Shown in pieces: positions 10,708 through 59,533 of a DNA stretch of 64,000 bases (position 1 is its first letter; each line of letters opens with the position of its first letter). Source of the DNA: Chloroflexus sp. Y-396-1 (GTDB lineage: Bacteria > Chloroflexota > Chloroflexia > Chloroflexales > Chloroflexaceae); NCBI RefSeq assembly GCF_000516515.1, contig NZ_KI911784.1:806001-870000 (forward strand), given 5' to 3'. The notes beneath the pieces were generated by a model. That model saw only the letters and a program-made list of their open reading frames with translations, made no database searches and had not been told where the DNA came from. A program made the position numbers and the translations under genes.

Positions 10708-10797
10708 TGCAACCTCTCTTGTAGCATCACATCCTCTGCCAGATGGACGAGGAACGGATAATTATCGTCGATGACGGATTGGAGGAAGTATCAATAA

Positions 10798-20536: not shown

Positions 20537-20634
20537 AATTGTTTTCCATAACAAAGGCTTTTTGATACTGTACTGTTGATGAGACAAATGGGTGGGGTAG
20601 CGGTCAGGAACACCGTCCACCCCAGCCATCACAA

Positions 20635-20916
20635 TCACGCGCTAATAAATGAACGATCAACGGCTTCAAACTCATTGACTTCCCGACGGATGCCGTTTGC
20701 CAAACCTTGCAGCAACTCCAGCATCTCATTCAGGTTCGTGCGCCAATCATTCCATTCATTTGCGAACTGTTGGCTAGACGCACCTTGCCATACTGCCAGT
20801 GCAGCATCTACGGCACTAACCATATTACGCAGCGCCGACTCGATAGAGCTGTGACTGCTATCAAAAGTGGAAGCAGTGGCACGAGCTTGATCAGTATCGA
20901 TACTGATAAGTGGCAT
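20635..20916 (-). CDS. WXG100 family protein (EsxA/EsxB-like)
   Basis: 93 residues, the usual length for the family. Two helices are joined by a turn with WQG (Trp43-Gly45), the WxG signature, and the second helix is rich in Gln, Asn and Trp. It pairs with the neighbouring WXG100 protein, probably as a heterodimer exported by the downstream ATPase. Its TGA stop overlaps a possible GTG start of the ATPase frame (GTGA). The C-terminal end (NEFEAVDRSFISA) lacks a clear YxxxD/E export motif. Confidence 0.93.
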   Translation of the reverse strand: MPLISIDTDQARATASTFDSSHSSIESALRNMVSAVDAALAVWQGASSQQFANEWNDWRTNLNEMLELLQGLANGIRREVNEFEAVDRSFISA

Positions 20917-42864: not shown

Positions 42865-43887
42865 ATGTGGCACATACACGGTCACGAATGGGCTATTGAA
42901 CAACTGCGGAGCAATATTCGCACTCAGCGTGTTGCCCACGCCTACCTCTTTGCCGGCCCATCAGGGATCGGTAAATCGTTGCTGGCCCTTCGGATGGCCC
43001 AGGCGTTGCTATGTGAGGAGCAAACAGGCGATCCCTGCTTGCAGTGTCGAACCTGTCGTCGCATCGAACGCGAGAGCCACCCCGATGTTCGGATTGCAAG
43101 TATGGCAACACAGGCCGCCGCTGCCAAAGCCGAGGAAGCAGCCCGCCAGAAAGAATTGAAAATTGCGACTATCCGCGAATGGCAACGCGATCTGGCTCTG
43201 CGTCCGTATGAGGCGTCACGCCGGATTTTGATCCTCTACGATGCCGAACGGCTGAGCGAGGAAGCGGCTAATGCGATGTTAAAGACTCTGGAGGAGCCAC
43301 CCGATTACGCTACCCTCTTGCTGGTAGCGCACAGTAACGATCTCCTGCCAACGATTGTCTCACGCTGTCGGGTCTTGCGTTTACGCCCGTTACCACGTGA
43401 GCAGGTAGCAGCCGCCTTGCGCGCCCGCGGTGCGTCTCCGGATCAGGCCGATATACTGGCAGCTTGGAGCAATGGTCGGATCGGGTGGGCAATCAACTTG
43501 ATGAATGATCCGGTAGCGCAAACGACCCGCCGTGAGCGGTTAGACGTATTCATTGGATTGCACAAGGCTGATCTGATCACTGCGCTGCAATGGGCGGAAC
43601 AGCGAGCAAAAGAGTACCGGGCTGGCGATCAGGCAACAGTGCTGGAATGGCTTGAACTATGGCAGAGCTGGTGGCGCGATATGCTCTTTATTACGGCAGG
43701 TTGTGCAGAAGCGATAACTAACATTGACCGACGCGCAGAATTGACCATGCTGGCACAGCAGATACCACCGACGGCGGCGTTTGCCTTCTTGCAAAAGATT
43801 ATTACGGTGAGCCAGCAACTGAATGAGAATGTGAGTCCGCAACTGGCACTTGAACATCTGGTATTACATCTTCCCCGCTCTGGCTGA
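42865..43887 (+). CDS. holB: DNA polymerase III delta-prime subunit
   Basis: 340 residues. AAA+ clamp-loader protein: Walker A GPSGIGKS, a zinc module CLQCRTCRR with an upstream Cys (about 48-62), LYDAERLSEEAANAMLKTLEEPP (sensor-1 region) and VSRCRVLRLRPL (arginine finger region). It opens the sliding clamp with the tau/gamma and delta subunits. Residues 80-100 are rich in Ala/Lys/Glu. Its TGA overlaps an ATG for the helicase frame (ATGGAGGAAT), but the helicase more likely starts 15 bp later. Confidence 0.92.
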   Translation: MWHIHGHEWAIEQLRSNIRTQRVAHAYLFAGPSGIGKSLLALRMAQALLCEEQTGDPCLQCRTCRRIERESHPDVRIASMATQAAAAKAEEAARQKELKIATIREWQRDLALRPYEASRRILILYDAERLSEEAANAMLKTLEEPPDYATLLLVAHSNDLLPTIVSRCRVLRLRPLPREQVAAALRARGASPDQADILAAWSNGRIGWAINLMNDPVAQTTRRERLDVFIGLHKADLITALQWAEQRAKEYRAGDQATVLEWLELWQSWWRDMLFITAGCAEAITNIDRRAELTMLAQQIPPTAAFAFLQKIITVSQQLNENVSPQLALEHLVLHLPRSG

Positions 43888-43901
43888 TGGAGGAATCTGA
43901 T

Positions 43902-46900
43902 ATGAATACGACCTCGATTTTCGATCTTCATGCGGCTGTGATCGACGATTATCGTCAGTTTGTCGAGTCGTTTATTCATATTGCCGATGATCGGATTCGC
44001 ACGATGGTGGAACAGACCATCGCTGATCAACGACTATGGCCAGAGCCATTGGTGCAATTAAGCCCGGCATACGCTGCGGCGCCTACCGTTGACGAGCTGG
44101 CGCAACGTGGGATCATTCAGCCAGAAACGGCTCACTTCTTCCGCACGCCGACGAACCAACCATTTCGTCTCTATCAGCATCAGTACGAAGCACTCCAGTA
44201 CGCGAAACAGCGAAAGAGCTTTGTCGTTACCAGTGGTACCGGTTCTGGTAAAAGTACATGTTATTTCTTACCAATTATCGATGATCTGTTGCGTTCCCGT
44301 GAACCCGTCAGTGGTGTGCAGGCTATAATTATTTATCCAATGAATGCGCTGGTAAATTCGCAAGAACAGGCGTTACAGCGTTTGGCAAACCAGTATCGTG
44401 AACAGTACAGTCGCGAGTTCCCGATCCGATTTGCGCGCTATACCGGTGAGACCAGCGAAGAACAGCGCGAGCTGTTGCGCCGTGATCCGCCACATATCTT
44501 GCTCACGAACTTTGTGATGGCAGAACTGATGATGGTGCGACCCGATGATCAGCGGCTGATCGGCGGTGCTATGCAGGCGTTGCGTTTTTTGGTGTTCGAT
44601 GAGCTACATACCTACCGTGGTCGCCAGGGGGCCGACGTGGCGATGTTGATCCGACGTTTGAAACAACGGTATGCGGCGCCGGATATTCTACATATCGGCA
44701 CCTCAGCCACTATGGTTGCTGGCACGAACGCATCTGCTGCTGAGCGACGTCGCGTCGTAGCTGAGTTTGCATCACGTTTCTTCGCACACTCGATGACCGC
44801 CGATCAGGTGATCGAAGAGACTCTCGAACCACTGACAATTGGGGGGCCACCAACGAATGCTGAGCTTCAAGCAGCATGGGAAAATCCTCTGCCATCAGCC
44901 GATGATGGTACGGGTTGGGAGATTCTGCGACGTCATCCACTGGCACGCTGGATCGAATTTGCCCTTGGTGTGCAGACCGATACCGATGGCCGCCTGGTAC
45001 GTCGTACACCGCGCACGCTTAGCGAAGCCGCGCAAGAACTAGCCGAACAAGTGAGTCGAACACCAGAGGAGTGCCGGCAGAAGATTCAACAGATGCTGGA
45101 ATACGGTAGCACGATCAATCGTCCTGGCGGCGGTATGGCATTTGCGTTTAAGTTACACCAGTTCATCTCACAGAGCAACCGGGTGTATGCCACGCTTGAA
45201 GACCGTCAAACCCGCCAAATATCACTCGATGGTCTGATCCGTACCAGCAATCAGCGACTGTACCTCCCCCTTGTCTTTTGTCGTCATTGCGGTCAGGAGT
45301 ACTATGACGTTCTCGTTTACAACCGTGATGTGCTGCCCAACCTGAATGAGCAGATGCTCGTCAACGGTATCGACGATAACGATGACAGCCAGCAACTTGG
45401 TTATCTGATGCTGCCCCTGGAATCGGACGACTGGAGTGATGAAAAGATCCCTGATGAGTGGTACGACGCGAAGGGCCGCATCGAAAAAAACTGGCGCACA
45501 CGTGTCCCCAGACAGGTATGGGTGTCGCCAGATGGTCGATTCAGCGAACAGCCATTCCCTACAGGGCAACGAATGTGGTTTCAACCACGTCCTTTTACGA
45601 TCTGTCTGCGCTGTGAAAAATGGTACCAGGGCAGAACAAGTGAGTACGCGAAACTCAGCTACCTCTCCAGTGAGAACGTATCGAGTGCGACTTCCATCCT
45701 CGCGATCTCGCTCTTACGGCGTGCCGCCGATACTGGCAATAGCAACACCGTATACGACCGCCTGCTTTCGTTTGTCGATAATCGCCAGGATGCCGCATTA
45801 CAAGCCGGTCACTTCAACGATCTCGTCCATATTGCGGTGATTCGAGCCGCCTTGGTCGAAGCCCTGCGCACCCATCACAAGCTACGCGACAGTAATGTCG
45901 CCAGGGAGGTAGTGAAATCAAGTGGTCTTACCTTGCGAGATATTGCCAGAAGCACAGAACTGCGCGAAGGAACGCCAATGGCGCGCAAAGTCTGGCGAAC
46001 GTTCACCGATCTGATCGAGTACTGGCTCTACGAAGACCTCCAGCGCGGCTGGCGGAGTATTGTCCAGCCTAATCTCGAACAACTTGGTCTGCTCCGGATC
46101 GAATACGATGGACTGCACGAGTTCTGTACCGATGAGCAGGTGTGGCGGGAGTCGCTGCGGTGTATTCAGCCAGAACAGCGGGCAAGCATTGTGCGCCACC
46201 TGCTCGATACCATGCGTCAGCGGCGAGCAATTGATACGCGCTGTCTGCAAGAAGATTACCAGCGTGAATTGCGCAAACGGGTCGAGAGCGATCTGAATGA
46301 GTTCTGGGGTTTTGACTCCGAGGATGGAAACGATTTGCAGACGGCGACGTATGTGAGGATCCGTGGGACAGCGAGCAAGCCGGTGGGCGGTATCTCGCTA
46401 GGCTGGCAGAGCGCATTTGCCCGGCAATTACGCAAGGTTATGCGGCTTGACCAGGATACGTATGAAGCCATCATTCGCGAGCTGCTCGAACAACTGGTCG
46501 CTTATGGGATGGTTACCCGCCTCCGTCCCATTGCCGATCATCAACGCTTTCAACTCAACGCCGCCTGTTTGTGCTGGCAACCAGGAACAGACGAATTGGA
46601 AAACACTGGAACGAACGGTATCGATGATCGGCTTGATGGTAGTAGGCATACCCGTCGACCAAATTCCTTCTTCCGTCATTTTTACCTGCAAAAAGCCGAA
46701 GCGCTTGCGGCATTGGAAGCCCGTGAGCACACTGCACAGGTTGTAGCCCCGGGAGAGCGTGAGCGACGGGAAAAGCGCTTTCGCTGGACAAAAGCTGATC
46801 AGAATGATCCGACGCTGAACCGGCGTTTACCGTTCCTGGTCTGTTCACCAACTATGGAATTAGGCATTGACATTGCCGAACTTTCTCTGGTTCATCTGCG

Positions 46901-49007
46901 AAACGTTCCGCCGACACCGGCCAACTACGCACAACGTAGTGGTCGCGCCGGTCGTCAGGGACAACCAGGATTGATCATCACGTACTGCCGGGCCAATCGG
47001 CCACACGATCAATATTTCTTCCGCAATCGCAAAGAGATGGTGGCCGGAAGCGTGCAGGCGCCGCGCATTGATCTGACCGGTGAAGCACTGGTGCGCGCCC
47101 ACCTCCACGCAATATGGCTGGCCGCAGTACGCCTGCCACTCGGTAACTCGATTGGGAACATCATTAATCTCGATCACCCTGATCTGCCGCTCAACGAAAA
47201 TGTTTGGCACCAGATTCGGCTTGCACCGGCCGGTTTGCGTGAGGTACGTGAACAGGTCGTTGCTGCGCTCTTAAGCGAAGATTTGCGGCGTGATGCACCG
47301 TGGTACAACGAGCGTTGGCTCGAGGATGAGCTTACCGAAGTTCCAAGACGATTTGATGAGGCTTTTAATCGCTGGCGTGAATTGTACCGAATCGCCCTCC
47401 GCCAATTAGCAGAAGCAAATGCGCTGATCAACAGTAACGACAAAGATAATCAAGAGCGCGGGAAACGTCTTCAGGACGAAGCATTACGACAGCGAAACTT
47501 GCTCCTACAGACCGATGTTGCCAGCGAGGAGAGTGACTTCTATCCGTATCGGTATCTGGCCAGCGAAGGCTTTCTGCCTGGATATAACTTCCCGGCACTC
47601 CCGGTACGAGCCTGGATCAGACGTGGTGAGGGCGAGTTTATTCCCCGACCTCGTGTTCTGGGGTTGCGCGAATTCGCACCGGGTAACTACATCTACCACG
47701 AAGGTGCAAAATGGGAAGTAACCGGTTTTCGAGTAACCTCCTCTGGTCTGGTAGACCGTCGGATGGATCGGAAGCTCTGCTATACCTGTGGTGCGTTTAC
47801 CACGCTCGAACACGATATGTGTCCAGTCTGTCAGACCCGCTTCGATGGCAGTAACAGTTATCTGGCCCCACTCCTCGAAATGCCAAATGTAACTACCCGT
47901 CGTCGCGAGCGGATTACCTCGGACGAAGAGGAACGACGTCGCCGTGGGTTCAACATTATCACTAAGTTCCAGTTCGCCCCGCAGACAGCGCGGCAACTTG
48001 AGGCGAAGATTGTCGATGAGAATACCACCCTGCTCGATTTGATTTACGCCCCTGCAGCAACCGTACTTACGATCAACCGGGGATGGTTGTTAGCTCAGGA
48101 AAGAGGTTTTCTCGTCGATCTTAGTAATGGCGAGATCATTAGTGAACAGAAAATAGCTCAATTGTATAAGCAGGAAGGACCACCACGCACCGAGCCTTCA
48201 GGAGAACGAGTGTTCCTTTGTGCTCAGGAGACCAAAAACATTCTCTTGATACGGCTTCGTGCGCCAGGTTGGGGTAACGACTCCAGGTTCTGGACGAGCC
48301 TGAAATATGCGTTGCGTTTCGGATTGGTCGAGGCATTCCAGCTTGATACCAACGAGATTGCTGCTGAAGTCGTAGGGCGTGATGATTGGTGCTCACTCAT
48401 GTTCATTGAAGAAAGTGAAGGTGGTGTTGGCGTGTTACGGCGGCTGATAGAGGAACCAGACGCATTTCAGCGTATGGTTCTGTCTGCCCTCGATCTCTGC
48501 CATTTCACGACCGAGGGTGTGGACATGAAACCTGAATGCACCACGGCATGCTACGACTGCTTACTCAGTTTCTCGAACCAATATGAAATCTTGCAGATTG
48601 ACCGTCATCACATTCGTGACGCTTTAATCCGGTTACATCGCGCTCGGCTTCAGCAAATCTACAATCGGCGCACGTATGATGAACAGGTTGCCCGCCTGCT
48701 GGCGCAGATCGATCCGCAATCCGAGCTTGAGCGGCGATTTCTGAAAACATTGCAAGCACTGCGTGCGCAACTCCCCGATAGTGCGCAAGAGCGGATTGGT
48801 GTGGCGAATTGTGTCGCTGACTTTTTCTACGATCCTAATATCTGTGTCTTTTGCGACGGGAGTGTTCACGATGAACCACACCAGCGTGCGCGTGATGAGC
48901 AGGTGCGACGGGAACTGCGTGCGTCTGGGTATCGGGTCATTGTTATCCGCTACGACCGTAATCTGGAAGAACAGATTCGGTCATACCCTGATGTGTTTAA
49001 GGTGTGA
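43902..49007 (+). CDS. Large DEAD/H helicase with DUF1998-type zinc region and C-terminal nuclease-like domain
   Basis: 1701 residues from the ATG at 43902, chosen because GGAGG lies 8 bp ahead. An SF2 helicase core with Walker A TSGTGSGKS (Lys about 117), FDELHTYRG (Walker B, about 232-240), PTMELGIDIAEL and the motif VI region QRSGRAGRQGQ (about 980-1015). Cys pairs FCRHC and CLRC (about 460 and 566) and CYTCG..CPVC (about 1294-1310) suggest zinc sites. A DUF1998-like cluster (CTTACYDCLLSF, about 1547) follows, as in MrfA/DrmA helicases. The last 80 residues (from about 1634) carry ADFFYDPN..FCDGSVHD..RRELRASGYRVIVIRY, the layout of Vsr/PD-(D/E)XK nucleases. It probably unwinds and cuts damaged or foreign DNA. 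Confidence 0.8.
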   Translation: MNTTSIFDLHAAVIDDYRQFVESFIHIADDRIRTMVEQTIADQRLWPEPLVQLSPAYAAAPTVDELAQRGIIQPETAHFFRTPTNQPFRLYQHQYEALQYAKQRKSFVVTSGTGSGKSTCYFLPIIDDLLRSREPVSGVQAIIIYPMNALVNSQEQALQRLANQYREQYSREFPIRFARYTGETSEEQRELLRRDPPHILLTNFVMAELMMVRPDDQRLIGGAMQALRFLVFDELHTYRGRQGADVAMLIRRLKQRYAAPDILHIGTSATMVAGTNASAAERRRVVAEFASRFFAHSMTADQVIEETLEPLTIGGPPTNAELQAAWENPLPSADDGTGWEILRRHPLARWIEFALGVQTDTDGRLVRRTPRTLSEAAQELAEQVSRTPEECRQKIQQMLEYGSTINRPGGGMAFAFKLHQFISQSNRVYATLEDRQTRQISLDGLIRTSNQRLYLPLVFCRHCGQEYYDVLVYNRDVLPNLNEQMLVNGIDDNDDSQQLGYLMLPLESDDWSDEKIPDEWYDAKGRIEKNWRTRVPRQVWVSPDGRFSEQPFPTGQRMWFQPRPFTICLRCEKWYQGRTSEYAKLSYLSSENVSSATSILAISLLRRAADTGNSNTVYDRLLSFVDNRQDAALQAGHFNDLVHIAVIRAALVEALRTHHKLRDSNVAREVVKSSGLTLRDIARSTELREGTPMARKVWRTFTDLIEYWLYEDLQRGWRSIVQPNLEQLGLLRIEYDGLHEFCTDEQVWRESLRCIQPEQRASIVRHLLDTMRQRRAIDTRCLQEDYQRELRKRVESDLNEFWGFDSEDGNDLQTATYVRIRGTASKPVGGISLGWQSAFARQLRKVMRLDQDTYEAIIRELLEQLVAYGMVTRLRPIADHQRFQLNAACLCWQPGTDELENTGTNGIDDRLDGSRHTRRPNSFFRHFYLQKAEALAALEAREHTAQVVAPGERERREKRFRWTKADQNDPTLNRRLPFLVCSPTMELGIDIAELSLVHLRNVPPTPANYAQRSGRAGRQGQPGLIITYCRANRPHDQYFFRNRKEMVAGSVQAPRIDLTGEALVRAHLHAIWLAAVRLPLGNSIGNIINLDHPDLPLNENVWHQIRLAPAGLREVREQVVAALLSEDLRRDAPWYNERWLEDELTEVPRRFDEAFNRWRELYRIALRQLAEANALINSNDKDNQERGKRLQDEALRQRNLLLQTDVASEESDFYPYRYLASEGFLPGYNFPALPVRAWIRRGEGEFIPRPRVLGLREFAPGNYIYHEGAKWEVTGFRVTSSGLVDRRMDRKLCYTCGAFTTLEHDMCPVCQTRFDGSNSYLAPLLEMPNVTTRRRERITSDEEERRRRGFNIITKFQFAPQTARQLEAKIVDENTTLLDLIYAPAATVLTINRGWLLAQERGFLVDLSNGEIISEQKIAQLYKQEGPPRTEPSGERVFLCAQETKNILLIRLRAPGWGNDSRFWTSLKYALRFGLVEAFQLDTNEIAAEVVGRDDWCSLMFIEESEGGVGVLRRLIEEPDAFQRMVLSALDLCHFTTEGVDMKPECTTACYDCLLSFSNQYEILQIDRHHIRDALIRLHRARLQQIYNRRTYDEQVARLLAQIDPQSELERRFLKTLQALRAQLPDSAQERIGVANCVADFFYDPNICVFCDGSVHDEPHQRARDEQVRRELRASGYRVIVIRYDRNLEEQIRSYPDVFKV

Positions 49008-49078
49008 GCGCATAACAGATGCACATTTCAGATGTGCCCTTTCGTAGTACGTTGCAAGCGGATACCAGATGGAATTGT

Positions 49079-50671
49079 ATGCAACCCCTGCTGAGTGTAC
49101 GTGAACTGAATATAACCCTTGCCACCAAACCAATCCTGAGCGGAATCACCTTTGATTTACAAGCGGGTGACATCCTGGGAGTGGTTGGTCTGCGCAGTGC
49201 GGGGAAATCGGTGCTCTTGCAGGTGCTGGCCGGTATCCATCCACCAACTAGCGGTGACGTGCAGATTGAGGGTATTACGCTGGAATGGCGAGCGCAAATA
49301 GCGCAACGGCTCGGCATTGAGTTTGTGCCCCAAACCCCGCCCCTGGTTGAACTCATGCCGGTCCTCAACAATATCTTTCTGGGGCGTGAATATGGCCGCA
49401 GACGGCTCGATCAGGCAGCAATGGCAACCATTGCGTATCAGTGGCTAGAACGATTTGGATTGCCGCGCAGCCTCGCTCACCAGCGCGCCAGTGATCTGAA
49501 CGAAGAAGAACGGCAACTGGTTGCACTTATTCGGGCGTTTGTGCGTCCGTTCCGCATTCTGATCCTCGATGAATCGTTCTCAGCACTGAGTTTCGCCCGC
49601 CAGCAGGTTGTCTTGCAGTATCTGCGTGAACGGGCAGCAACTGGCGTTGGTATCATTCTCAGCAGCGACGATCTCAACCTGATCTTCAGCATTACCAATC
49701 GGCTGCTGGTCCTGTACCAGGGTCGGCAGGCCGCCTTACGTACAACCGTCAACACGACACCGCGCGAAGTCGTCGAGCTAATGGTCGGTTCAGTCCGTCA
49801 GGAGCGCGTCACACCCCTGATCTGGGCCTTTGAGAATTACTATCAGGCCCAACAACAAGCCGAGTCGCTTCGTCAGCGCCAACAGCAACTGCAACACAAC
49901 CTGGCCGAACAAGACTCGCTCAATCGGGAGTTGGTACGGCAATTACAGACCCAAATGATTGCGCTTGATCAACTCAATCGGGCGTTGCAAGAAGCCAATC
50001 ACCGGCTCATCGTCGAACGCGAGGCCGAACGCAAAGCGCTGGCCCGCGAGTTGCACGATCAGGTCATTCAAGACCTACTCAGCTTTAACTATCAACTCGA
50101 ACATGTTGAAGAGGAAATAGAGCAACCAACTATCCTGACCGAGTTACAGAACATTCGGCACGGTATTCGCGAAGTTGTCGCGATGTTGCGGCAGATGTGC
50201 AGCGATCTGCGGCCTCCCACTCTCGATAGTCATGGCTTGGCGGCTGCACTACGTTCCCTGGTAAGTCAGTGGAGTGAACAAACCGGCATTCGCGTTGAGC
50301 TGAATCTAGTTGAACCGCTAGATCGCTGGTCAGAGACCATCGAACTCACCGTCTTTCGCATCGTGCAAGAAGGGTTGAACAATGTACGTAAACATGCCCG
50401 TGCCAGCCAGGTATTCCTGGAGGTACGTCGCACCTCAGCCGCAGGGATTATGGTTCGCCTGGCCGACAACGGACGGGGGATGGAGACACCGCCTGATTTA
50501 CGCAGTCTGTCAGAGCAGCAACACTTTGGCTTGATCAGCATCAGCGAACGGGTTTCCCTATTGCGTGGGACACTCCAAATCGGCCCCTCAGCCTGGGGAG
50601 GGTTGGAACTTCAGGTGGAGATTCCTAACCCGGCGCCCTTTCCAACCAGCGAAGGGATCGGTGTCAACTAG
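49079..50671 (+). CDS. Fusion of sugar-type ABC ATPase domain and NarL-class histidine kinase
   Basis: 530 residues from the ATG at 49079; an earlier in-frame start at 49019 would add 20 unrelated residues. Residues 1-235 are an ABC ATPase like those of sugar importers: Walker A GLRSAGKS (37-44), a Q-loop FVPQ, and Walker B LILDES (161-166). The LSGGQ signature is replaced by LNEEE (140-144) and the switch His is Ser (ILSSDD), so hydrolysis is doubtful. A coiled coil (about 255-320) leads to a HisKA_3 box with His326 (ALARELHDQVIQDLLS) and an ATP-binding domain with NNVRKHA, DNGRGM and GLISISERV. It is cytosolic, and likely senses the state of the nearby sugar transporter and phosphorylates the convergent response regulator. 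Confidence 0.9.
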   Translation: MQPLLSVRELNITLATKPILSGITFDLQAGDILGVVGLRSAGKSVLLQVLAGIHPPTSGDVQIEGITLEWRAQIAQRLGIEFVPQTPPLVELMPVLNNIFLGREYGRRRLDQAAMATIAYQWLERFGLPRSLAHQRASDLNEEERQLVALIRAFVRPFRILILDESFSALSFARQQVVLQYLRERAATGVGIILSSDDLNLIFSITNRLLVLYQGRQAALRTTVNTTPREVVELMVGSVRQERVTPLIWAFENYYQAQQQAESLRQRQQQLQHNLAEQDSLNRELVRQLQTQMIALDQLNRALQEANHRLIVEREAERKALARELHDQVIQDLLSFNYQLEHVEEEIEQPTILTELQNIRHGIREVVAMLRQMCSDLRPPTLDSHGLAAALRSLVSQWSEQTGIRVELNLVEPLDRWSETIELTVFRIVQEGLNNVRKHARASQVFLEVRRTSAAGIMVRLADNGRGMETPPDLRSLSEQQHFGLISISERVSLLRGTLQIGPSAWGGLELQVEIPNPAPFPTSEGIGVN

Positions 50672-50690
50672 AGCGCTTTTAGAGCGCTTT
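50672..50690. terminator. Candidate bidirectional terminator between convergent genes
   Basis: AGAGCGCTTTTAGAGCGCTTTG lies at the junction of the kinase gene and the convergent regulator. The two AGCGCT units pair to form a short stem with T residues after it on the plus strand. The gap is only 7 bp, so the structure overlaps the coding ends. Confidence 0.35.
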
Positions 50691-51752
50691 GTGCTTACGC
50701 TGGATGGCGTCCTCGACAACCTGACGAACTGCGGCGGCGTCGAGGTCTTTCTTATCAAGGAAGGCCAGTGCTCCAGATTCCAGCCCTAAACGACGAAACT
50801 CGCGATCTGGATATGCACTGATCAGGACAACTCTTGATCCAGGCTGAAGTGCCTTGATTCGACGCAAACATTGAATTCCGTCACCATCGTTTAGAATTAG
50901 GTCAATAAAAATGAGATCGGGCGTTATCTGTTGCAGCAACCGCACCGCTTGGTGACAGTCCTCTGCGTCGTACAACCGGGCATCGATACAAGCTTTCGCG
51001 ATCATCCGCTTGAGTTGCACACGATACCGTTCGTTATCGTCGATGACCAAAACTGTCAGAGGTACTGTACTGGTCGTTGGTGGTTCACGATGCTGAACAA
51101 CCTCGAAGCCTGTCTCGGCAATAAGTTCGGGATGCTGAAGGGCAAACTGATAGGCTTCAAGCCGACTACTCACGTTAATCGCCCGGTAGAGCGCTGTCAG
51201 ATGATTCTCGACCGTCTTCACGCTGAGACCCATCTCCTGGGCCATCCGCCGATTATCATACCCCTGCACAATCAGCCGTAAGAGTTCGCGTTGACGACGG
51301 GTCAGGGCCGTCTGCGGCGAATGGGTAAGCTGAGGGGTGGCCTGAATGAGACGGCTTAGCAACGGGCCGGATATCCAGTTACCGCCAGCGATAATCCGTT
51401 GGACTGCCAGTTGCAGGTCACTAAGCGGCTGATCTTTCAGGTGATAACCATGGACACCGGCTGCTAGCAGGCCAATGACATAAGATTGATCATCGTAGGC
51501 GCTAACCACCAGAATCTTCATTGCCGGATAGGTCGTATGAATATGGCGGATGGTCGCAATGGGATCGAAGTCCGGCATCGCTACATCAACAACCAGCAGG
51601 TCGGGTTGATGTTGGGCTAGAACAGCCAGCAGTTGCGGGCCATTTGATGCTTCACCAACCACCTCACATTCAGACACACTGGTCAATGCACTGCGCAAGC
51701 CAGCGCGCACCACGGCATGATCATCAGCCAGTACTACGCGAGTCGTTCCCAT
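50679..51752 (-). CDS. Response regulator REC-LuxR HTH-REC
   Basis: 357 residues. Residues 4-120 are a receiver (ADDHAVVRAGL, VVDVAMPD, VSAYDD, LKDQ), then a LuxR-type HTH (LTRRQRELLRLIVQGYDNRRMAQEMGLSVKTVENHL) at about 150-210, then after a short linker a second receiver (about 230-350; VIDDNERYRV, IDLILNDGDG, ISAYPD, DKKD). Both receivers keep the acidic pocket, Asp and Lys. NarL-type regulators normally stop after the HTH, so the extra C-terminal receiver is unusual. It converges on the ABC/kinase fusion gene, its likely partner, with 7 bp between them. Target genes are probably the sugar importer. Confidence 0.9.
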   Translation of the reverse strand: MGTTRVVLADDHAVVRAGLRSALTSVSECEVVGEASNGPQLLAVLAQHQPDLLVVDVAMPDFDPIATIRHIHTTYPAMKILVVSAYDDQSYVIGLLAAGVHGYHLKDQPLSDLQLAVQRIIAGGNWISGPLLSRLIQATPQLTHSPQTALTRRQRELLRLIVQGYDNRRMAQEMGLSVKTVENHLTALYRAINVSSRLEAYQFALQHPELIAETGFEVVQHREPPTTSTVPLTVLVIDDNERYRVQLKRMIAKACIDARLYDAEDCHQAVRLLQQITPDLIFIDLILNDGDGIQCLRRIKALQPGSRVVLISAYPDREFRRLGLESGALAFLDKKDLDAAAVRQVVEDAIQRKHKAL

Positions 51753-52327: not shown

Positions 52328-53542
52328 TTACCCTGCCCGACCACGCCGACGAGTTGTCACATCAAAGATCACCGCTGCGACCAGCACCAGACCGCGCACG
52401 ATATATTGATACGCAATATCGATACCCATCAGGTTCATACCGCTCGTTAATGATACATAGACCAGTGCACCGATGATTGAGCCAATGACATTCCCGACGC
52501 CTCCGGCTGCCGACACCCCCCCGATGTACGCTGCTGCAATTGCATCAAGTTCAAATAGCGTACCAGCAGTGGTCGTTGCCGAGCGCAAGCGCGAAGCAAA
52601 CAACACCCCCGACAGCGCCGAGAGCATGCCCATCGAAGCAAAGACAATATAGGTAATCCGCTTGACACTGATCCCGCTCAACTCAGCAGCTTCGGGGTTA
52701 CCGCCAACCGCATAAATGTGGCGACCAAGGACGGTCTGGGTGGTGACAAAATGATAGATTGCGACAACAACCAGCACAATGACCATCGTCCACGAAAGGC
52801 CATTGTAACCAGCCATGATCCACGCCAGTAGACCAATAAGGGTCGAGATGAAGACCAGTTTGAGCACAAACATATCGAGGGGCAACACCTCGAAATTGTA
52901 CGCCAGTTTCTTGCTGCGGGTGCGTACCTCGCTCACAATATAGGCCACAATTGCTACTAGACCAAGCAACAGCGTGAGCGTATGGTAGCCAGGTACCAGA
53001 CTGAATGGCACGTCAGGAATAAACCCATTCCCAATCGCGTTGAACGTTTCGTCTTCGATAATAATCGTGCCAGTACCGGCGGTAACCAGTTGTAATGCAC
53101 CACGGTAAATTAACCAGCCGGCCAGCGAAGCGACAAACGACGGTATCTTCAACTCCGCCACCGGCAAAGCGGTCAGTAAACCGGCAAGCATGCCCATCAC
53201 CATGACCATCGGTACCACAACAATGGTTGGTAATTCCCAAAAACGCAGAGCAATTGCTGCCACTGCACCAAGAAAACCGGCCAGAAAGCCAACCGAGAGG
53301 TCAATATGGCGGATCACGATCACCAGCGTCATACCCACCGCTAACACCGCGATGTAGCCGGTCTGGTTGATTAAATTACTCAGATTACGGGATGAGATAA
53401 AGATACCATTAGTTGTGATCGAAAAAATGATCATGATGATGAACAAGGCAATAAACATGCCGTATTGCCGAATATTTTGTCCCAATACTCGTTGTAGATT
53501 GTTCAGAAACGTTGTCTGTTTGACCTGTGCTCTGGTCGTCAT
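52328..53542 (-). CDS. Sugar ABC transporter permease (XylH/GguB-like)
   Basis: 404 residues, about ten membrane helices (for example MFIALFIIMIIFSITTNG, YIAVLAVGMTLVIVI). The family signature is RHIDLSVGFLAGFLGAVAA followed by LPVAELKIPSFVASLAGWLIYRG, and near the end DAIAAAYIGGVSAAGGVGNVIGSIIGAL, as in BPD_transp_2 permeases for xylose, galactose or multiple sugars. It forms the channel of the import system with the ATPase and binding protein upstream. The length suggests the XylH/GguB type rather than the shorter RbsC. Start ATG follows AGGAGAGG. Confidence 0.92.
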   Translation of the reverse strand: MTTRAQVKQTTFLNNLQRVLGQNIRQYGMFIALFIIMIIFSITTNGIFISSRNLSNLINQTGYIAVLAVGMTLVIVIRHIDLSVGFLAGFLGAVAAIALRFWELPTIVVVPMVMVMGMLAGLLTALPVAELKIPSFVASLAGWLIYRGALQLVTAGTGTIIIEDETFNAIGNGFIPDVPFSLVPGYHTLTLLLGLVAIVAYIVSEVRTRSKKLAYNFEVLPLDMFVLKLVFISTLIGLLAWIMAGYNGLSWTMVIVLVVVAIYHFVTTQTVLGRHIYAVGGNPEAAELSGISVKRITYIVFASMGMLSALSGVLFASRLRSATTTAGTLFELDAIAAAYIGGVSAAGGVGNVIGSIIGALVYVSLTSGMNLMGIDIAYQYIVRGLVLVAAVIFDVTTRRRGRAG

Positions 53543-53609: not shown

Positions 53610-55133
53610 TTAATAATCAACTGCCAGCGCCATAATCTTTTCCTGAGTTGCCTCAGCGATCGGTAATTCACCCTTGATTCGACCCCCAGAGACGACGTAG
53701 ACCCGATCACTCATGCCAAGGACTTCTGGCAATTCTGATGAGATCATGATGATGCTCATGCCATCTTCGACCAGCCGATTCATCAACTGGTAGATTTCAT
53801 ACTTCGCTCCTACGTCAATACCGCGGGTTGGTTCATCGAGGATAAGGACATCAGGCTGCACAAAGAGCCACTTGCCGAGACACACCTTTTGCTGATTACC
53901 ACCACTGAGATTCCCGACCGGCTGTTCAATGGTGGGAGTCTTTATATTCAGTGACTGACGATATTTCTCGGCGATTTGAATTTCGGCATTCCGGTCGATT
54001 ACCCCGTTGTTCGCTAGTGCTCTCAGGTTAGCCAGGGTGAGGTTCTGGCGTACATCCTGAATCAGGATCAGACCTTTGGCCTTGCGATCCTCGGACACAT
54101 AGGCCATTCCGGCAGCAATGGCTTCACGCGGATGGTGGAAGGTGCGTTTGCGACCTTTAAGCCATAGTTCGCCGCTGATGTGATACCCCGGTGCGTTCCC
54201 AAACAGGCTGAGAGCCAGTTCTGTCCGACCGGCGCCCATCAATCCAGCCAGACCAACGATCTCGCCACGACGGACGCGCAGATTCACATCACGCAACAAA
54301 TAACGTCCGGCCTCCGGGGAATAGACTGTCCAGTTGCGTAATTCAAGCACGACATCGTCACTGACCCGGCGACTGCGTGGTGGATAGATATTGGTAATTT
54401 CACGTCCGACCATATTCCGAATCAGCGCCTGTTCGTTGACCTCACCTTTATGGGCGTCAAGCGTGCAAACCGTCTTACCATCGCGGAGCACGGTAACAGT
54501 GTCGGCCACCGACAAAACCTCTTTGAGTTTATGTGAGATAAGAATGCACGTCACACCCTGATCGCGCAGTTCACGCAGCAAATTCAACAGGTTCTCGCTA
54601 TCATCCTCATTGAGAGCTGCCGTTGGTTCATCGAGAATGAGAATCTTGACTTCACGACTCAATGCCTTGGCAATTTCAACCAATTGCTGGATGCCAACCC
54701 CCAGATCACGAATTTTGGTTGCCGGATTCACGGATAAACGCACTTTGCGCAGGACCTCGTTAGCCTGACGGATGGTTTCATTCCAATCGATAATACCATT
54801 CCGACAGATTTCGTGACCAAGAAAGATGTTTTCGTAGATTGTCATTTCTGGAACGAGCGCCAGTTCCTGATAAATAATACCAATTCCAACCCGCTCACTA
54901 TCGGCGATCCCCAAAAAACGCTGCGGCTGACCATTAATGAGAATTTCGCCACTGTACGATCCGTATGGATAGACGCCACTTAAAATTTTCATCAACGTTG
55001 ATTTACCGGCGCCATTTTCGCCCACCAGACAGTGAATTTCGCCCCGTTTAACACTGAAAGTAACGTTATCAAGCGCACGCACACCGGGGAATTCTTTGGT
55101 AATCTTGCGCATTTCCAGAATCGGGGTTTCCAT
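53610..55133 (-). CDS. Sugar ABC transporter ATPase with two ABC domains (XylG/GguA/MglA-like)
   Basis: 507 residues, two tandem ABC domains. First: Walker A GENGAGKST, a degenerate signature (DLGVGIQQLVEI), Walker B ILILDEPTAAL and switch His in LISHKL. Second: GLMGAGRTE in place of the usual Walker A (degenerate Lys, as in the MglA family), signature NLSGGNQQKV, Walker B LILDEPTRGIDVG and SSELPEV. The asymmetry is normal for this family. It powers sugar uptake together with the adjacent permease and periplasmic protein. Substrate cannot be told from the sequence; xylose, arabinose, galactose or mixed sugars are all possible. Confidence 0.94.
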   Translation of the reverse strand: METPILEMRKITKEFPGVRALDNVTFSVKRGEIHCLVGENGAGKSTLMKILSGVYPYGSYSGEILINGQPQRFLGIADSERVGIGIIYQELALVPEMTIYENIFLGHEICRNGIIDWNETIRQANEVLRKVRLSVNPATKIRDLGVGIQQLVEIAKALSREVKILILDEPTAALNEDDSENLLNLLRELRDQGVTCILISHKLKEVLSVADTVTVLRDGKTVCTLDAHKGEVNEQALIRNMVGREITNIYPPRSRRVSDDVVLELRNWTVYSPEAGRYLLRDVNLRVRRGEIVGLAGLMGAGRTELALSLFGNAPGYHISGELWLKGRKRTFHHPREAIAAGMAYVSEDRKAKGLILIQDVRQNLTLANLRALANNGVIDRNAEIQIAEKYRQSLNIKTPTIEQPVGNLSGGNQQKVCLGKWLFVQPDVLILDEPTRGIDVGAKYEIYQLMNRLVEDGMSIIMISSELPEVLGMSDRVYVVSGGRIKGELPIAEATQEKIMALAVDY

Positions 55134-55252: not shown

Positions 55253-56401
55253 TTAGGGTAGGTTGGTGAAATCGCTGGCGCTATAGTAACCCGAGTCGAT
55301 CAGTGCAGCACGCACATTCTCACGAGTTACCGTCACAACTGGCGATTGGATAGCGGGCACATCTTTCTTCCCATTGTTGTAGGAACCACGCGCTTCAGGC
55401 TGCTTATTTTCGAGCAGAGCAACCGCAGCCTTGATCGCATCTTTCACCAGTGTCCGCACATCCTTGAACACGGTCATCGACTGGCGGCCATCGATGATAT
55501 ACTGCACCGAAGCCTTCTCAGCGTCCTGGCCGGTCACAAAATACTGGGTGACATCTTTATCTGCGGCAAAGGCATCGGCAATCGCCCGTGCCGTACCGTC
55601 ATTTGGGGCAAGGATATAGACCTTGCCTTTATCGGCGGCAGTAACAGCGGTCAGGTTAGCTTCGGCCAGATTCTTCGCCGTGTTGAAATCCCAGTTCGTC
55701 GTGATCTGACCAATAATCTTTGCCATCTCGTCACGAGTCAGATCGAGCTTATTCTGCAAGGCAACCGCCTCGCTGGAGTTCTTGATCACAAAGGTACCAT
55801 CAGCGATCTTGGGCTGAAGAACCTTCCAGGCACCCTCAAAGAAGAGGAAGGCATTGTTGTCAGACGCAGCACCGGCGTAGAGGTAGAGTGGATTGCCACT
55901 GCCACTAGCACGATCAACAAGGTATTGCGCCTGCTGTGCGCCTACCGCAATGCTATCAAAGGTCACATAATAATCAACTGCCTCAGTCTCGCGGATCAAG
56001 CGGTCATACGAGATGACCTTTACACCAGCAGCACGGGCAGCCTCGGCCGCAGCGGCAGCGGCTGTACCATCGTGTGGGCAGATGATCAGTACCTTGATAC
56101 CCTTAGAAATCAGAGCCTCAACATTCTCCTTTTCCTTCGCCGATGAACCCTGGCTGAAGAGAATTTCGACCTGATACCCGGCCTGCTGGAGCGCCTCACG
56201 GAAACGGGTCTCATCCTGAATCCAGCGGGGTTCATCTTTAGTCGGCAGGACGATACCAACCGCGAGTTTTTGGCTCGATCCACCGGTACTACCACCACTG
56301 CTCCCACCGGTATTACCGGTATTACTGCCGCCACAGGCAGTTAACAGGAACACAAAGGCTGTCAACAAAGACAGCATGAACCACAGAGTCTTCTTTGACA
56401 T
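55253..56401 (-). CDS. Sugar-binding lipoprotein (ChvE/XylF-like)
   Basis: 382 residues from the ATG at 56401, preceded by AAGGAGG. A lipoprotein signal peptide with lipobox LLTAC (Cys about 22) and a Gly/Ser spacer anchors it outside the membrane. The body is a Peripla_BP_4 domain: LAVGIVLPTKDEPRWIQDE, EALISKGIKVLIICPHDG, GVKVISYDRLIRE and YILAPNDGTARAIADAF, typical of ChvE/XylF. It captures the sugar for the permease and ATPase encoded downstream. It is the first gene of the importer operon and is divergent from the MalT-like regulator. Confidence 0.93.
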   Translation of the reverse strand: MSKKTLWFMLSLLTAFVFLLTACGGSNTGNTGGSSGGSTGGSSQKLAVGIVLPTKDEPRWIQDETRFREALQQAGYQVEILFSQGSSAKEKENVEALISKGIKVLIICPHDGTAAAAAAEAARAAGVKVISYDRLIRETEAVDYYVTFDSIAVGAQQAQYLVDRASGSGNPLYLYAGAASDNNAFLFFEGAWKVLQPKIADGTFVIKNSSEAVALQNKLDLTRDEMAKIIGQITTNWDFNTAKNLAEANLTAVTAADKGKVYILAPNDGTARAIADAFAADKDVTQYFVTGQDAEKASVQYIIDGRQSMTVFKDVRTLVKDAIKAAVALLENKQPEARGSYNNGKKDVPAIQSPVVTVTRENVRAALIDSGYYSASDFTNLP

Positions 56402-56776
56402 CACATTCCTCCTTGAGATAAAAAGGCAACACAACATAGCAATGCGCTACACCACAAACAGCGTTTCTTTACCGGTAGATACACCTCCTTGTGTCGATTG
56501 CAGAGTAGCATTCAGATAGTGCTATTGAAGCACGATACATGCGGCTTGCCTAGCTGCCTAACCCTGAAATTAGTTAGGGAGTCACCCCTAAGAAGAAATT
56601 AGGGGAAAACCCTTTAGTTGTGAGGCGTGAGAAGAGAGAACATCGAGAAGCTTGAAGGGTTTCGGCTGGCCCGCTGGCAATGACCTACCGTTCTACCATC
56701 AGCTATGGTAGACTAGAGGATGCAACGATATTTCAACCTGTTACCGTCCTACCAATGATCATTGCACGGAGGTGGC
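56402..56776. other. Divergent regulatory region between importer and MalT-like regulator
   Basis: 375 bp. It holds two tandem CCTAA/TTAGG inverted repeats (56557-56578 and 56585-56605) and an AT-rich segment. A GGAGG site precedes the regulator start at 56777. No gene is seen. Confidence 0.55.
56557..56605. promoter_or_regulatory. Two tandem CCTAA/TTAGG inverted repeats
   Basis: CCTAAC (56557-56562) pairs with GTTAGG (56573-56578), and CCCCTAA (56585-56591) with TTAGGGG (56599-56605). The shared core and equal orientation suggest repeated operator sites or mRNA hairpins controlling one of the divergent genes. Confidence 0.45.
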
Positions 56777-59533
56777 ATGATGATGCCGCTTGTGCGCACC
56801 AAATTACAGCCACCAGAAGCTCTCCCTTTCTTACTCACCCGCCCGCGTTTACACGATCGTTTACGACTGGCCCTCCATAGACGACTCGTCTTGATCGCAG
56901 CTCCGGCAGGCTATGGGAAGACCTCACTGCTGGCCGAATGGCTGGTTGAGGCGCGTAAAGAATGGTCGCACATCGCCTGGGTCAGTCTCGATAGTACCGA
57001 TAATGATATTCGCCGTATGCTGGCGTACCTGCTCGAAGCACTGCACCATTTGCCGGAAGGGCAACGTGAGCGATTACAATCGTTCATCAACAAAGATAGC
57101 GAGATCGATACCGAACAATGGTGTGCCGAATTGCTCAACAATCTGGCCGAAACGGCTAGCTCCACAATTATCGTGCTGGATGATTACCATCTGATCAGCG
57201 ACTCGCACATCCATCAAGCAATTACATTTCTGGTTGATCATCTGCCGCCACATTGTCGTTTGATCATTCTTAGCCGCAGAGATCCACCGATCCCCCTGGC
57301 CCGCTGGCGAGCACGCGGTCATTTGGCTGAATTGCGTAGTTTTGACCTGGCTTTCAGTCCTGAAGAGACGGCCACATTTCTACTGGAAACGATGGATCTT
57401 CCACTTAATCGCGAACAGATTGTTACGTTGTTAGAGAGTACTGAGGGTTGGCCGGCTGGTTTACATTTGGCTGCCCTAGCATTACGTGATCGTATAAATC
57501 GGGGAGAAGTAATTGATGATCCTATTCCCAGTAATCGTTACGTGGCAGATTATCTGATTGAAGATGTCTTCAACCAATTACCCCCTCATCTACAACAGTT
57601 CCTGTTACAAACCTCGATTCTCGAACGGTTATGTGGTGCACTGTGTGATGCAGTGCTTGGCGTAAGTGACTATACGACGGGTGGACAATCGGCGCAATCG
57701 TACAGTCAATCACTCCTCACGGAACTGGAACGCAACAATCTTTTCTTGTTTCCACTTGACACCGAGCGCATCTGGTACCGGTACCATCGTTTGTTCGCCG
57801 ACGTCTTGCGTGAGCGGTTAGTCGTGGGTTGTTCGCCAGAGCAGGTCGCCACGCTCCATCGTCGCGCAGGCGTCTGGTACGCCGCCCATGGAATGCTCGT
57901 TCAGGCAGTTCATCACGCCTTGCAGGCGCAGGCCATCGATGACATCGTAGCGATGCTCGAACCAAATGGCCTGTCAATTATTTCACAGGTTAGTGAGGAG
58001 ACTCTTCGTCGATGGTTACCTGCTATTCCAGAAGAGGCTTTTGAACAGCATCCCCGCATAGCTCTGTTGCGAGCCTGGCTGGCTACCACCAATTATCAAG
58101 CTGAAGAAGCATCCCATTGGATTGCAGTGGCCGAACGTGCATTAGCCGATGTTGCGAGCGGTACCGCCACACCGATTGGTCTGATTGCAAACTTACGTGG
58201 CGAACTGAGCGCTGTACGTTTGCGACTGGCAATCTTACAGGGCAATATCGCACAGGCGCTCAGCGAAGGAAAGCAAGCCCTGAACTGGTTACAAAGTGAC
58301 TATCAATCGTTACGAATGCGAGTGGCTAAAGACTTAGGTTACGTCTATCTCGCCCAGGGCCATCTATCGCAGGCCGAGCAAGCTTTCAAGGAAGCGATGA
58401 TCAATGGTTTGAACGCTGGCCTGCCGTATATTTCTGCACTGGCAAGTAGTGATTATGCCTATACCCTTATGCTGCGCGGCGCATTCAGTACGGCAATTCA
58501 CGCCTGTCGCGATACACTCGAACAGACTATGCGTCGCTATCGCCATCAAACGGTACCAGGGATTGGATTAGCGTTGCTAGGGCTTACCGAACTCTACCAT
58601 ATCCGCCACGAGTTTGCTGGCGCGTTACCAGCACTTGCCGAGGCTGAAAGTTTGATTAAATCAGGGCAGATCACCAGCTATCTCTGTCTCTTGATTGTGA
58701 TGGCACGAGTTGCCCGATCACGGGGCGATCTGACCGGTGCGCTACGTGTGATCCGTCAGACCCGCTTTCTGGCTCAACAACGTCAGGTTCATTGGGTACT
58801 AGCAGTACTAGATGGTCTGGAAGGACAAATCCTGCTCGAACAGGGAGATATAACGGCGGCCAGACAACTGCTGACAAAGAGCGTATCGATAGCGCAAGAA
58901 TTTTACTACTTGCCGACGGCCATCTTCTACGCACGCGAGCACATAACCCGTGCGCAGTATGAATGGCGACTAGCTCAAGGTGCTGCGAATGGTGATGTGC
59001 AGGCCCTCCGTGAACTGGCCGCTGAATTGAGAGAACCGTCGGGAACAGCACTGTGGCAGACCCTGCTACCCTTTGATGCGGCACTACTGCGCGGGTTAGC
59101 GCTGTCAACCGCCGGTGAAGATGCCACTGAATCGATCATGTCGGCACTCGAGCTGGCCGCCAGTGAACGAATAGTGGCACCATTTACACAAGCAGGTGAA
59201 CCACTTCGCCGCATCCTCAGCCAGCTCGCGAATCTTCAACAGCTATCATCGTTTGGCGAATATATTTTCTCGCTGTTTGAAAACGACAACCTATCGTCGA
59301 TGGTCATCCCCCCCTCACCCACATCGAACAACTTGTCCGAACTATTGAGTCAGCGTGAAATCGAGGTTCTGCGTCTAATGGCAGAAGGACGCAGTAACCA
59401 CGAGATTGCTGCCAGTTTAATTATTGCGGTCAGTACGGTGAAATCACACATTAACAACATTTTCGGCAAATTGGGTGTTGCTTCACGCACGCAGGCAGTG
59501 GCTCGTGGTCGTCGGCTCGGTCTTATCCCTTAG
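56777..59533 (+). CDS. MalT-like large LuxR-family transcriptional activator
   Basis: 918 residues from the ATG at 56777 (GGAGG upstream; the earlier TTG frame start is less likely). Walker A LIAAPAGYGKTSLL (about 40-50), a STAND-type NTPase with VVLDDYH and LSRRDPP, then a long array of TPR-like helices (about 350-840) and a C-terminal LuxR HTH (LLSQREIEVLRLMAEGRSNHEIAASLIIAVSTVKSHI). In MalT, ATP and an inducer drive assembly and activation. Its divergence from a sugar-binding lipoprotein gene implies it activates the importer. The 3' end overlaps the homoserine dehydrogenase gene by 11 bp. Confidence 0.93.
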   Translation: MMMPLVRTKLQPPEALPFLLTRPRLHDRLRLALHRRLVLIAAPAGYGKTSLLAEWLVEARKEWSHIAWVSLDSTDNDIRRMLAYLLEALHHLPEGQRERLQSFINKDSEIDTEQWCAELLNNLAETASSTIIVLDDYHLISDSHIHQAITFLVDHLPPHCRLIILSRRDPPIPLARWRARGHLAELRSFDLAFSPEETATFLLETMDLPLNREQIVTLLESTEGWPAGLHLAALALRDRINRGEVIDDPIPSNRYVADYLIEDVFNQLPPHLQQFLLQTSILERLCGALCDAVLGVSDYTTGGQSAQSYSQSLLTELERNNLFLFPLDTERIWYRYHRLFADVLRERLVVGCSPEQVATLHRRAGVWYAAHGMLVQAVHHALQAQAIDDIVAMLEPNGLSIISQVSEETLRRWLPAIPEEAFEQHPRIALLRAWLATTNYQAEEASHWIAVAERALADVASGTATPIGLIANLRGELSAVRLRLAILQGNIAQALSEGKQALNWLQSDYQSLRMRVAKDLGYVYLAQGHLSQAEQAFKEAMINGLNAGLPYISALASSDYAYTLMLRGAFSTAIHACRDTLEQTMRRYRHQTVPGIGLALLGLTELYHIRHEFAGALPALAEAESLIKSGQITSYLCLLIVMARVARSRGDLTGALRVIRQTRFLAQQRQVHWVLAVLDGLEGQILLEQGDITAARQLLTKSVSIAQEFYYLPTAIFYAREHITRAQYEWRLAQGAANGDVQALRELAAELREPSGTALWQTLLPFDAALLRGLALSTAGEDATESIMSALELAASERIVAPFTQAGEPLRRILSQLANLQQLSSFGEYIFSLFENDNLSSMVIPPSPTSNNLSELLSQREIEVLRLMAEGRSNHEIAASLIIAVSTVKSHINNIFGKLGVASRTQAVARGRRLGLIP

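Follow-up and report, generated by a model that had tools for sequence, protein, structure and literature searches.

The 64,000-nucleotide stretch of Chloroflexus DNA analyzed here (hereafter the window) encodes a histidine kinase whose input half is derived from the ATPase of a CUT2 sugar importer. Together with the response regulator encoded beside it, this kinase probably forms a two-component system for a CUT2 monosaccharide importer, in which the ATPase-derived domain reads a CUT2 permease and does not drive it. Regulation of the importer by the kinase-regulator system is well supported, and we infer that the ABC half docks on the permease. The evidence consists of the motif pattern, the co-occurrence with the regulator, the linkage to importers, and a repeat in front of the importer, all of which were observed in the sequences. 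The genes concerned are as follows.

49079..50671, forward strand: ABC-histidine kinase, ATG start, 530 aa
49079..49798, forward strand: ABC domain of the kinase, of CUT2 descent, with Walker A/B and Q-loop kept, LNEEE, and Asp197
Residues of the kinase: ABC 1–240, coiled coil about 241–316, HisKA_3 317–382, HATPase_c 422–516
50679..51752, reverse strand: response regulator, REC-LuxR HTH-REC (Pfam domains)
52328..53542, reverse strand: CUT2 permease, GguB-like (Pfam and NCBIfam)
53610..55133, reverse strand: CUT2 double ATPase, GguA-like, switch region ISHK (Pfam and NCBIfam)
55253..56437, reverse strand: monosaccharide-binding protein, ChvE-like (Pfam and NCBIfam)

The genome, a single contig of 4.89 Mb, contains one full-length copy of the fusion. 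An alternative in-frame ATG at 49019 would give a protein of 550 aa, but the start at 49079 is favored because the alignment of relatives begins there. Pfam matches were found to ABC_tran (residues 20–167, 1.7e-19), HisKA_3 (317–382, 7.8e-14), and HATPase_c (422–516, 9.7e-6; its 26.4 bits just reach the cut-off of 26.4). The predicted structure (mean pLDDT 77.6, pTM 0.48) has an ABC fold to about residue 230 (mostly 85–93), helices at 241–274 and 280–346, and then the kinase core. The best 50 of 1428 Foldseek matches of this model (E <= 0.001) were all ABC proteins, and PDB sequence and fold searches with the kinase gave generic ABC proteins only among the matches listed. No transmembrane segment was predicted in the kinase (maximum 19-residue hydropathy 1.72 among 26 sequences), so a membrane partner would be needed for reading a sugar outside the cell.

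A preliminary description of this DNA, made from the letters alone, had called the protein a histidine kinase with a degenerate sugar-type ABC half, and the Pfam domains, the motifs, and the grouping with CUT2 proteins confirm that assignment. The retained ATP site that it described is seen in the window kinase (Walker A GLRSAGKS, Q-loop Gln85, Walker B ILILDE) and in the relatives. Among the 24 of 26 sequences in the motif alignment (two near copies, L059 and L062, were omitted and read separately), the Walker A residues GKS are invariant, as in a CUT2 ATPase, and the Q-loop Gln is present in 22. The Walker B Asp is also invariant and is followed by Glu in 21 sequences and Asp in three; in one copy outside the alignment (L108), Gln replaces the catalytic Glu.

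The motifs associated with hydrolysis have a different fate. The signature region of the window kinase reads D-LNEEE-RQ, as had been noticed before, with LNEEE at L140–E144 and the fourth residue being Glu143. Glu occupies this fourth position in all 24 aligned kinases and in 34 of 34 when the other copies are included, so that none has an LSGGQ-type signature. Likewise, the switch His is absent from all 24 and from all 33 readable copies overall. Its place is taken by Asp (10 of the 24), Gln (5), Ser (4), Asn (3), Lys (1), and one other residue. The earlier assignment of Ser to this position in the window kinase was wrong: against the neighboring importer ATPase (ISHK) the position aligns with Asp197, and Ser196 precedes it. 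The two single-NBD ATPases first read have LSGGQ and ISH intact. In the kinase half, His326, Asn435, Gly465, and Gly467 are invariant in the 24 sequences, as in a HisKA_3 kinase. Some copies are imperfect. The G405 kinase is frameshifted, in two parts, and its motifs were read only as far as the signature; the L109 and L113 translations have one stop each within the aligned stretch; and the L063 frame, which runs for 1175 codons, was trimmed. ATP-binding motifs are thus retained and hydrolysis motifs lost across the kinase family.

Comparisons of the window with six Chloroflexus relatives gave dN/dS values of 0.05–0.14 for the ABC half, with synonymous sites near saturation, and these ratios indicate that this half is under purifying selection. 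Given the relatives in 34 genomes (see below), the purifying selection, and the signature Glu in 34 of 34, the fusion is not a chance product. One may ask whether the ABC domain is a relic retained for dimerization, the true input being supplied by a different protein or by the coiled coil. The loss of the catalytic motifs would fit such a relic, as would the dN of the ABC half, which exceeds that of the kinase half by a factor of 1.4–2.4 in the six Chloroflexus comparisons. Against it, ATP binding looks selected, judging from the invariant Gly, Lys, and Ser of Walker A and the low dN/dS, and the same Gly-to-Glu change in every copy does not resemble random decay. This explanation is thus highly improbable.

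Regarding the origin of the ABC half, its best NCBIfam matches are the first halves of CUT2 ATPases. A midpoint-rooted tree was drawn from CUT2-type ATPases and kinases alone, containing the kinase domains, eight single-NBD ATPases, and 12 double ATPases split into their two halves. The kinase ABC domains form one clade (0.967), which is joined with the single-NBD CUT2 ATPases (0.998). An origin from the first or second NBD of GguA was rejected on account of this placement. The sugar-type origin proposed in the preliminary description therefore stands, but the kin are single-NBD ATPases and not the double ATPase next door. As the exact source they are candidates only, since a Paraburkholderia ABC protein scores 228 bits against the kinase profile, much like the single-NBD ATPases (208–241 bits).

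The suggested survey of ABC-HisKA_3 fusions and their neighbors was carried out, and 34 Chloroflexota genomes were found to carry the fusion. Among a sample of 400 Chloroflexota genomes, 26 have, at E <= 1e-35, a relative in which both halves are present (36–88% identical, the window's own aside). Another eight, which are close relatives and not a random sample, came from searching 61 close genomes with a profile. A single-sequence scan of genome contigs gave 10 loci, namely five Chloroflexus-type fusions (81–84% identical) and otherwise plain ABC matches. Among the best 5000 records of a plasmid search, none covered 80% of the kinase query, and 398 genomes from the phylum of a Paraburkholderia genome, searched with no positive control, had no kinase matches at E <= 1e-90. 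Searches of such coverage are a weak test of occurrence beyond Chloroflexota.

The neighborhoods of these kinases point to sugar importers. CUT2 genes adjoin the kinase in 27 of the 34 genomes, including all eight genomes that were found after the pattern had been noticed. Linkage of the orthologues to importers, on which the preliminary description had staked its idea, was thus found directly in these 27 and through a regulator located elsewhere in six more; the remaining genome (G367), with kinase and regulator on a 3.5-kb contig, cannot be judged. The kinase neighbors are CUT2 importers with a periplasmic binding protein, not Bce-type transporters, and the neighboring genes scanned gave no clue to the transported sugar. 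In 12 genomes (eight Chloroflexus, G168, G343, G224, and G080; in the last two, the ChvE gene alone is visible, at a contig end), the kinase adjoins a ChvE-type importer without the extra permease and binding protein described below. In three others (G088, G070, and G421), it follows genes for a XylF-like binding protein, a single-NBD ATPase, and a permease.

Six genomes (G034, G043, G078, G102, G110, and G274) have a lone kinase, flanked by a radical-SAM gene and RNase H; the 20 kb around it contain no match to an importer or to the regulator. The regulator orthologue of these genomes lies elsewhere. In the four whose neighborhoods were read, it is divergent from a XylF-type importer with a single-NBD ATPase, and in the other two it lies, by coordinates, within 3 kb of a single-NBD ATPase. 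These lone kinases bear on a different explanation, in which the ABC domain is a soluble sensor of nucleotide (energy charge) with no permease contact, the importer being merely a regulated target. Such a sensor would accord with the ATP-binding motifs kept in 24 of 24 sequences and with these six kinases, whose 20-kb surroundings gave no match to an importer permease, a binding protein, or the regulator.

The genomes that speak against a soluble sensor are those in which the kinase is encoded with a second transporter pair. In 12 genomes (G302, G142, G061, G238, G094, G216, G401, G402, G404, G405, G407, and G415), the kinase lies downstream of, and on the same strand as, genes for an extra RbsC-like permease and an extra RhaS/RbsB-like binding protein, a pair that a pure ATP sensor would not need. 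A few of the genes in these blocks are in two pieces (the G405 regulator, the G404 extra permease, and the G402 extra binding protein). Strict family members (>400 bits) of the extra binding protein occur in six of the 400 genomes, always beside the kinase. Weaker relatives (260–288 bits) occur in eight other genomes and as a second copy in G142. Of the loci that carry such relatives, six were fetched; four of them (L084, L085, L087, and L088) have, in this order, a double ATPase, a permease, and a binding protein. L086 starts with the end of an ATPase gene and continues in the same order, and L083 has only a weak ABC match near the pair. The kinase follows the extra pair in all 12 blocks, and in the canonical operon the ATPase precedes the pair; in G216 and G405, it is the regulator, not an ATPase, that precedes the extra pair. 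This block of extra pair and kinase, with a real ATPase accompanying the same pair elsewhere, favors the idea that the kinase sits on the permease as a surrogate ATPase. The differing gene order and the L083 locus speak against it. Alternatively, the double ATPase of the importer could supply the energy for the extra permease as well. A search of four Chloroflexus genomes gave no strict relative of the extra binding protein, and no dedicated permease was seen with the kinase in Chloroflexus or in G168 and G343.

The extra pair also bears on the proposal that the kinase ABC domain and an importer ATPase (GguA or single-NBD) pair on the importer as a mixed dimer that would slow transport and report its flux. 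The sister relation to single-NBD ATPases, some of which are encoded beside the same regulator, agrees with this proposal. Yet GguA already has both NBDs in one chain, the kinase itself should be a dimer, and a separate permease and binding protein go with the kinase in 12 genomes. We consider a mixed dimer quite unlikely.

The second component of the proposed system is conserved together with the kinase. A regulator orthologue (E <= 1e-75) is present in 27 of the 400 genomes, comprising all 26 kinase genomes and G024 (Fisher p 6e-40, relatedness uncorrected). Thus, a LuxR-HTH regulator, the partner expected of a HisKA_3 kinase, accompanies the kinase in 26 of 26 genomes. The phospho-acceptor Asp residues of both receivers (D56 and D284) are invariant in the 28 regulator copies that were aligned, which are not all the copies met. 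A complete second receiver behind the HTH gives one kinase two receivers, which may serve as a phosphate sink or allow a branched output. The preliminary description had remarked that the adjoining importer and regulator fit its idea, and the co-occurrence and the importer linkage support such a functional tie.

G024, the one genome with a regulator and no intact kinase, is a draft of 480 contigs. Its importer (ChvE, GguA, and GguB) looks complete and has an exact copy of the repeat described below in front. Downstream of the importer lie a decayed extra permease and a kinase remnant of roughly the 90 C-terminal residues (L116, 6155–7337). The extra binding protein had no match in this draft. 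Judging from these remnants, G024 appears to be a natural loss, a single case in which the extra pair and the kinase have gone together and the importer has stayed. Since a soluble nucleotide sensor would have no need of the pair that was lost or broken along with the kinase, this case weighs against that explanation as well, and we regard it as unlikely.

The importer promoters of seven Chloroflexus genomes have a common inverted repeat, TAGGGG-N4-CCCCTA. Two putative operator copies lie in front of the importer in the window.

56575..56590, no strand assigned: putative operator copy TAGGGAGTCACCCCTA, one mismatch to TAGGGG-N4-CCCCTA
56600..56615, no strand assigned: second putative operator copy TAGGGGAAAACCCTTT, two mismatches, 25 bp further

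With up to two mismatches and within 500 bp of the importer start, the repeat was found in 26 of 28 loci, and in 19 of 21 outside Chloroflexus. These 28 loci include the seven Chloroflexus source loci and L115, a second G404 importer located beside a regulator without a kinase; the two importer promoters that lack the repeat are those of L063 and L065. The density is 33 sites in 14,028 promoter positions versus 6 in 490,244 positions elsewhere in the same loci. Omitted from the count were six kinase loci without an importer (L056, L057, and L059–L062) and seven with the importer start missing (L069, L101, L102, L107, and L110–L112). Of these seven, L111 has one two-mismatch match before the regulator and L112 has one far from the importer. 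The repeat occurs neither in the six loci that carry relatives of the extra pair nor in the six lone-kinase loci, and it is present in four of four separate regulator-importer loci of the lone-kinase genomes.

Exact copies with an A/T spacer are present in seven of 35 genomes, once each and always before such an importer; six are at importer promoters of kinase loci and the seventh is at the G024 importer. None was found in the nine scanned genomes without the regulator, and the exact form is missing in 19 of 26 regulator-bearing genomes, including that of the window. The window has three matches at <=2 mismatches (56575, 56600, and 38742) versus 3.4 expected, a chance level, so that the repeat is not detectable from the window alone. 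The conserved repeat seems to mark one target promoter, and the REC-HTH-REC regulator is the likeliest candidate for its reader. Promoter-like sites near the importer operon were not above those in shuffled sequences, and Rfam gave nothing above threshold in the window.

The intergenic region that contains the repeat is shared with the gene for a MalT-like regulator (56762–59533; AAA, TPR, and LuxR HTH), which is divergent from the importer. This regulator cluster is present in six of the seven Chloroflexus neighborhoods, and in Chloroflexus it could be a user of the repeat.

Under the reading that we prefer, of a permease-reading kinase, the input domain would be paralogous to a single-NBD CUT2 ATPase and, judging from its motifs, would hold ATP. 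With the signature Gly changed to Glu and the switch His lost, the ATP sandwich and the hydrolysis cycle could presumably not be completed. A kinase dimer would sit on a CUT2-type permease at the place of the ATPase. This permease would be the dedicated, co-encoded one in the 12 genomes with the extra pair and the importer's own (GguB) in Chloroflexus and others. Docking of the sugar-loaded binding protein would move the ABC pair, and this movement would pass through the coiled coil to the HisKA_3 pair. The kinase would then phosphorylate the REC-HTH-REC regulator, which would bind TAGGGG-N4-CCCCTA before the importer operon, and uptake would be adjusted. ATP occupancy, the direction of the signal, and regulator binding to the repeat are the conditional steps in this chain.

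In known ABC importers, the C termini of the NBDs face the cytoplasm, and the two-fold arrangement of two NBDs below a pair of permeases would presumably match that of a kinase dimer. The stretch from the Q-loop to LG.E, which is permease-facing in known importers, keeps on average 0.46 of the positions conserved in the single-NBD ATPases, with 0.24–0.63 in other regions. This moderate conservation does not single out a docking face; a conserved docking face was rejected as proof of docking, the figures being too even, and the lack of special conservation agrees with a soluble sensor. Furthermore, one docking mode may not suit all genomes, given that Chloroflexus, G168, and G343 have no dedicated permease.

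A related and more tentative possibility, which we rate at somewhat below an even chance, is an importer turned receptor kinase. Here the permease and the binding protein would retain the layout of a sugar importer, both motors would be replaced by ABC kinases that hold ATP and do not hydrolyze it, and the complex would signal sugar with no transport. The signature Glu corresponds in position to the CFTR gating mutation G551D, and a uniform Glu at this position would uncouple ATP binding from closure under such an arrangement. Whether an NBD dimer reports transporter state could be tested on this system with one soluble protein and a single reporter promoter.

Several other features of the window were observed. 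Between the DNA polymerase III delta' gene and the kinase, 43887–49007 encodes a 1706-aa DEAD/Helicase_C protein with an MrfA Zn-binding domain, whose best PADLOC match is DruE3 (Druantia helicase, 3.2e-104). A 70% match to its first 335 residues was found in another place, at the end of locus L050. A link between this helicase and the kinase was rejected, as an ORF of the helicase cluster is present in just two of seven Chloroflexus neighborhoods. G+C-rich tandem arrays of 18-bp and 30-bp units lie within two reverse-strand ORFs (9845–11177), and 150-bp tandem repeats (3377–4211) lie inside a reverse-strand ORF of 766 aa. A lower-G+C stretch includes 16097–20638, which encodes a 1513-aa FtsK/SpoIIIE ATPase (three matched stretches) that presumably resembles a type VII secretion ATPase, with a Ser/Thr kinase gene nearby (12597–13979).

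Among known systems, the proposed one is similar to BceAB-BceS in that a histidine kinase is tied to an ABC transporter whose operon it regulates. BceS of Bacillus subtilis is described as receiving input from the ABC transporter BceAB and regulating the operon of that transporter (PMC8534201, PMC10314905). However, BceS has two membrane helices, and a separate ATPase (BceA), and the substrate there is an antimicrobial peptide, whereas the kinase described here has a fused ATPase-derived domain and no predicted helix; the two-helix architecture of Bce-type kinases is not found in any of the 26 sequences. The 5TMR histidine kinases with an S-component fold have a receptor input related to part of ECF transporters (PMC11109136). 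In those kinases, the input is a membrane subunit of a transporter, whereas here it would be the cytoplasmic motor domain. With GguA, RbsA, and the single-NBD relatives, the ABC half shares direct homology, and RbsA is itself described with one degenerate site (PMC11466899). Unlike CUT2 ATPases, the kinase combines the signature Glu and the lost switch His in one domain and has a histidine kinase C terminus. The HisKA_3-HATPase_c module and the REC-LuxR HTH regulator resemble NarL/UhpA-type systems, from which the present case differs by its ABC input domain and by the second intact receiver after the HTH of its regulator. In ChvE-VirA, a kinase takes its input from a sugar-binding protein of this kind, but VirA has periplasmic and membrane parts and none was seen here. 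An ABC-histidine kinase fusion was not described in the titles or abstract openings among the matches listed from the open PubMed Central literature. To our knowledge, most work on signaling readout of the conformational state of an ABC importer has used kinases that are separate proteins, BceS among them. Here, transporter motor and kinase form one protein that has lost the hydrolysis motifs, and a probable natural loss case is available in G024. If the proposed reading is true, the ABC motor domain joins the list of kinase input domains.
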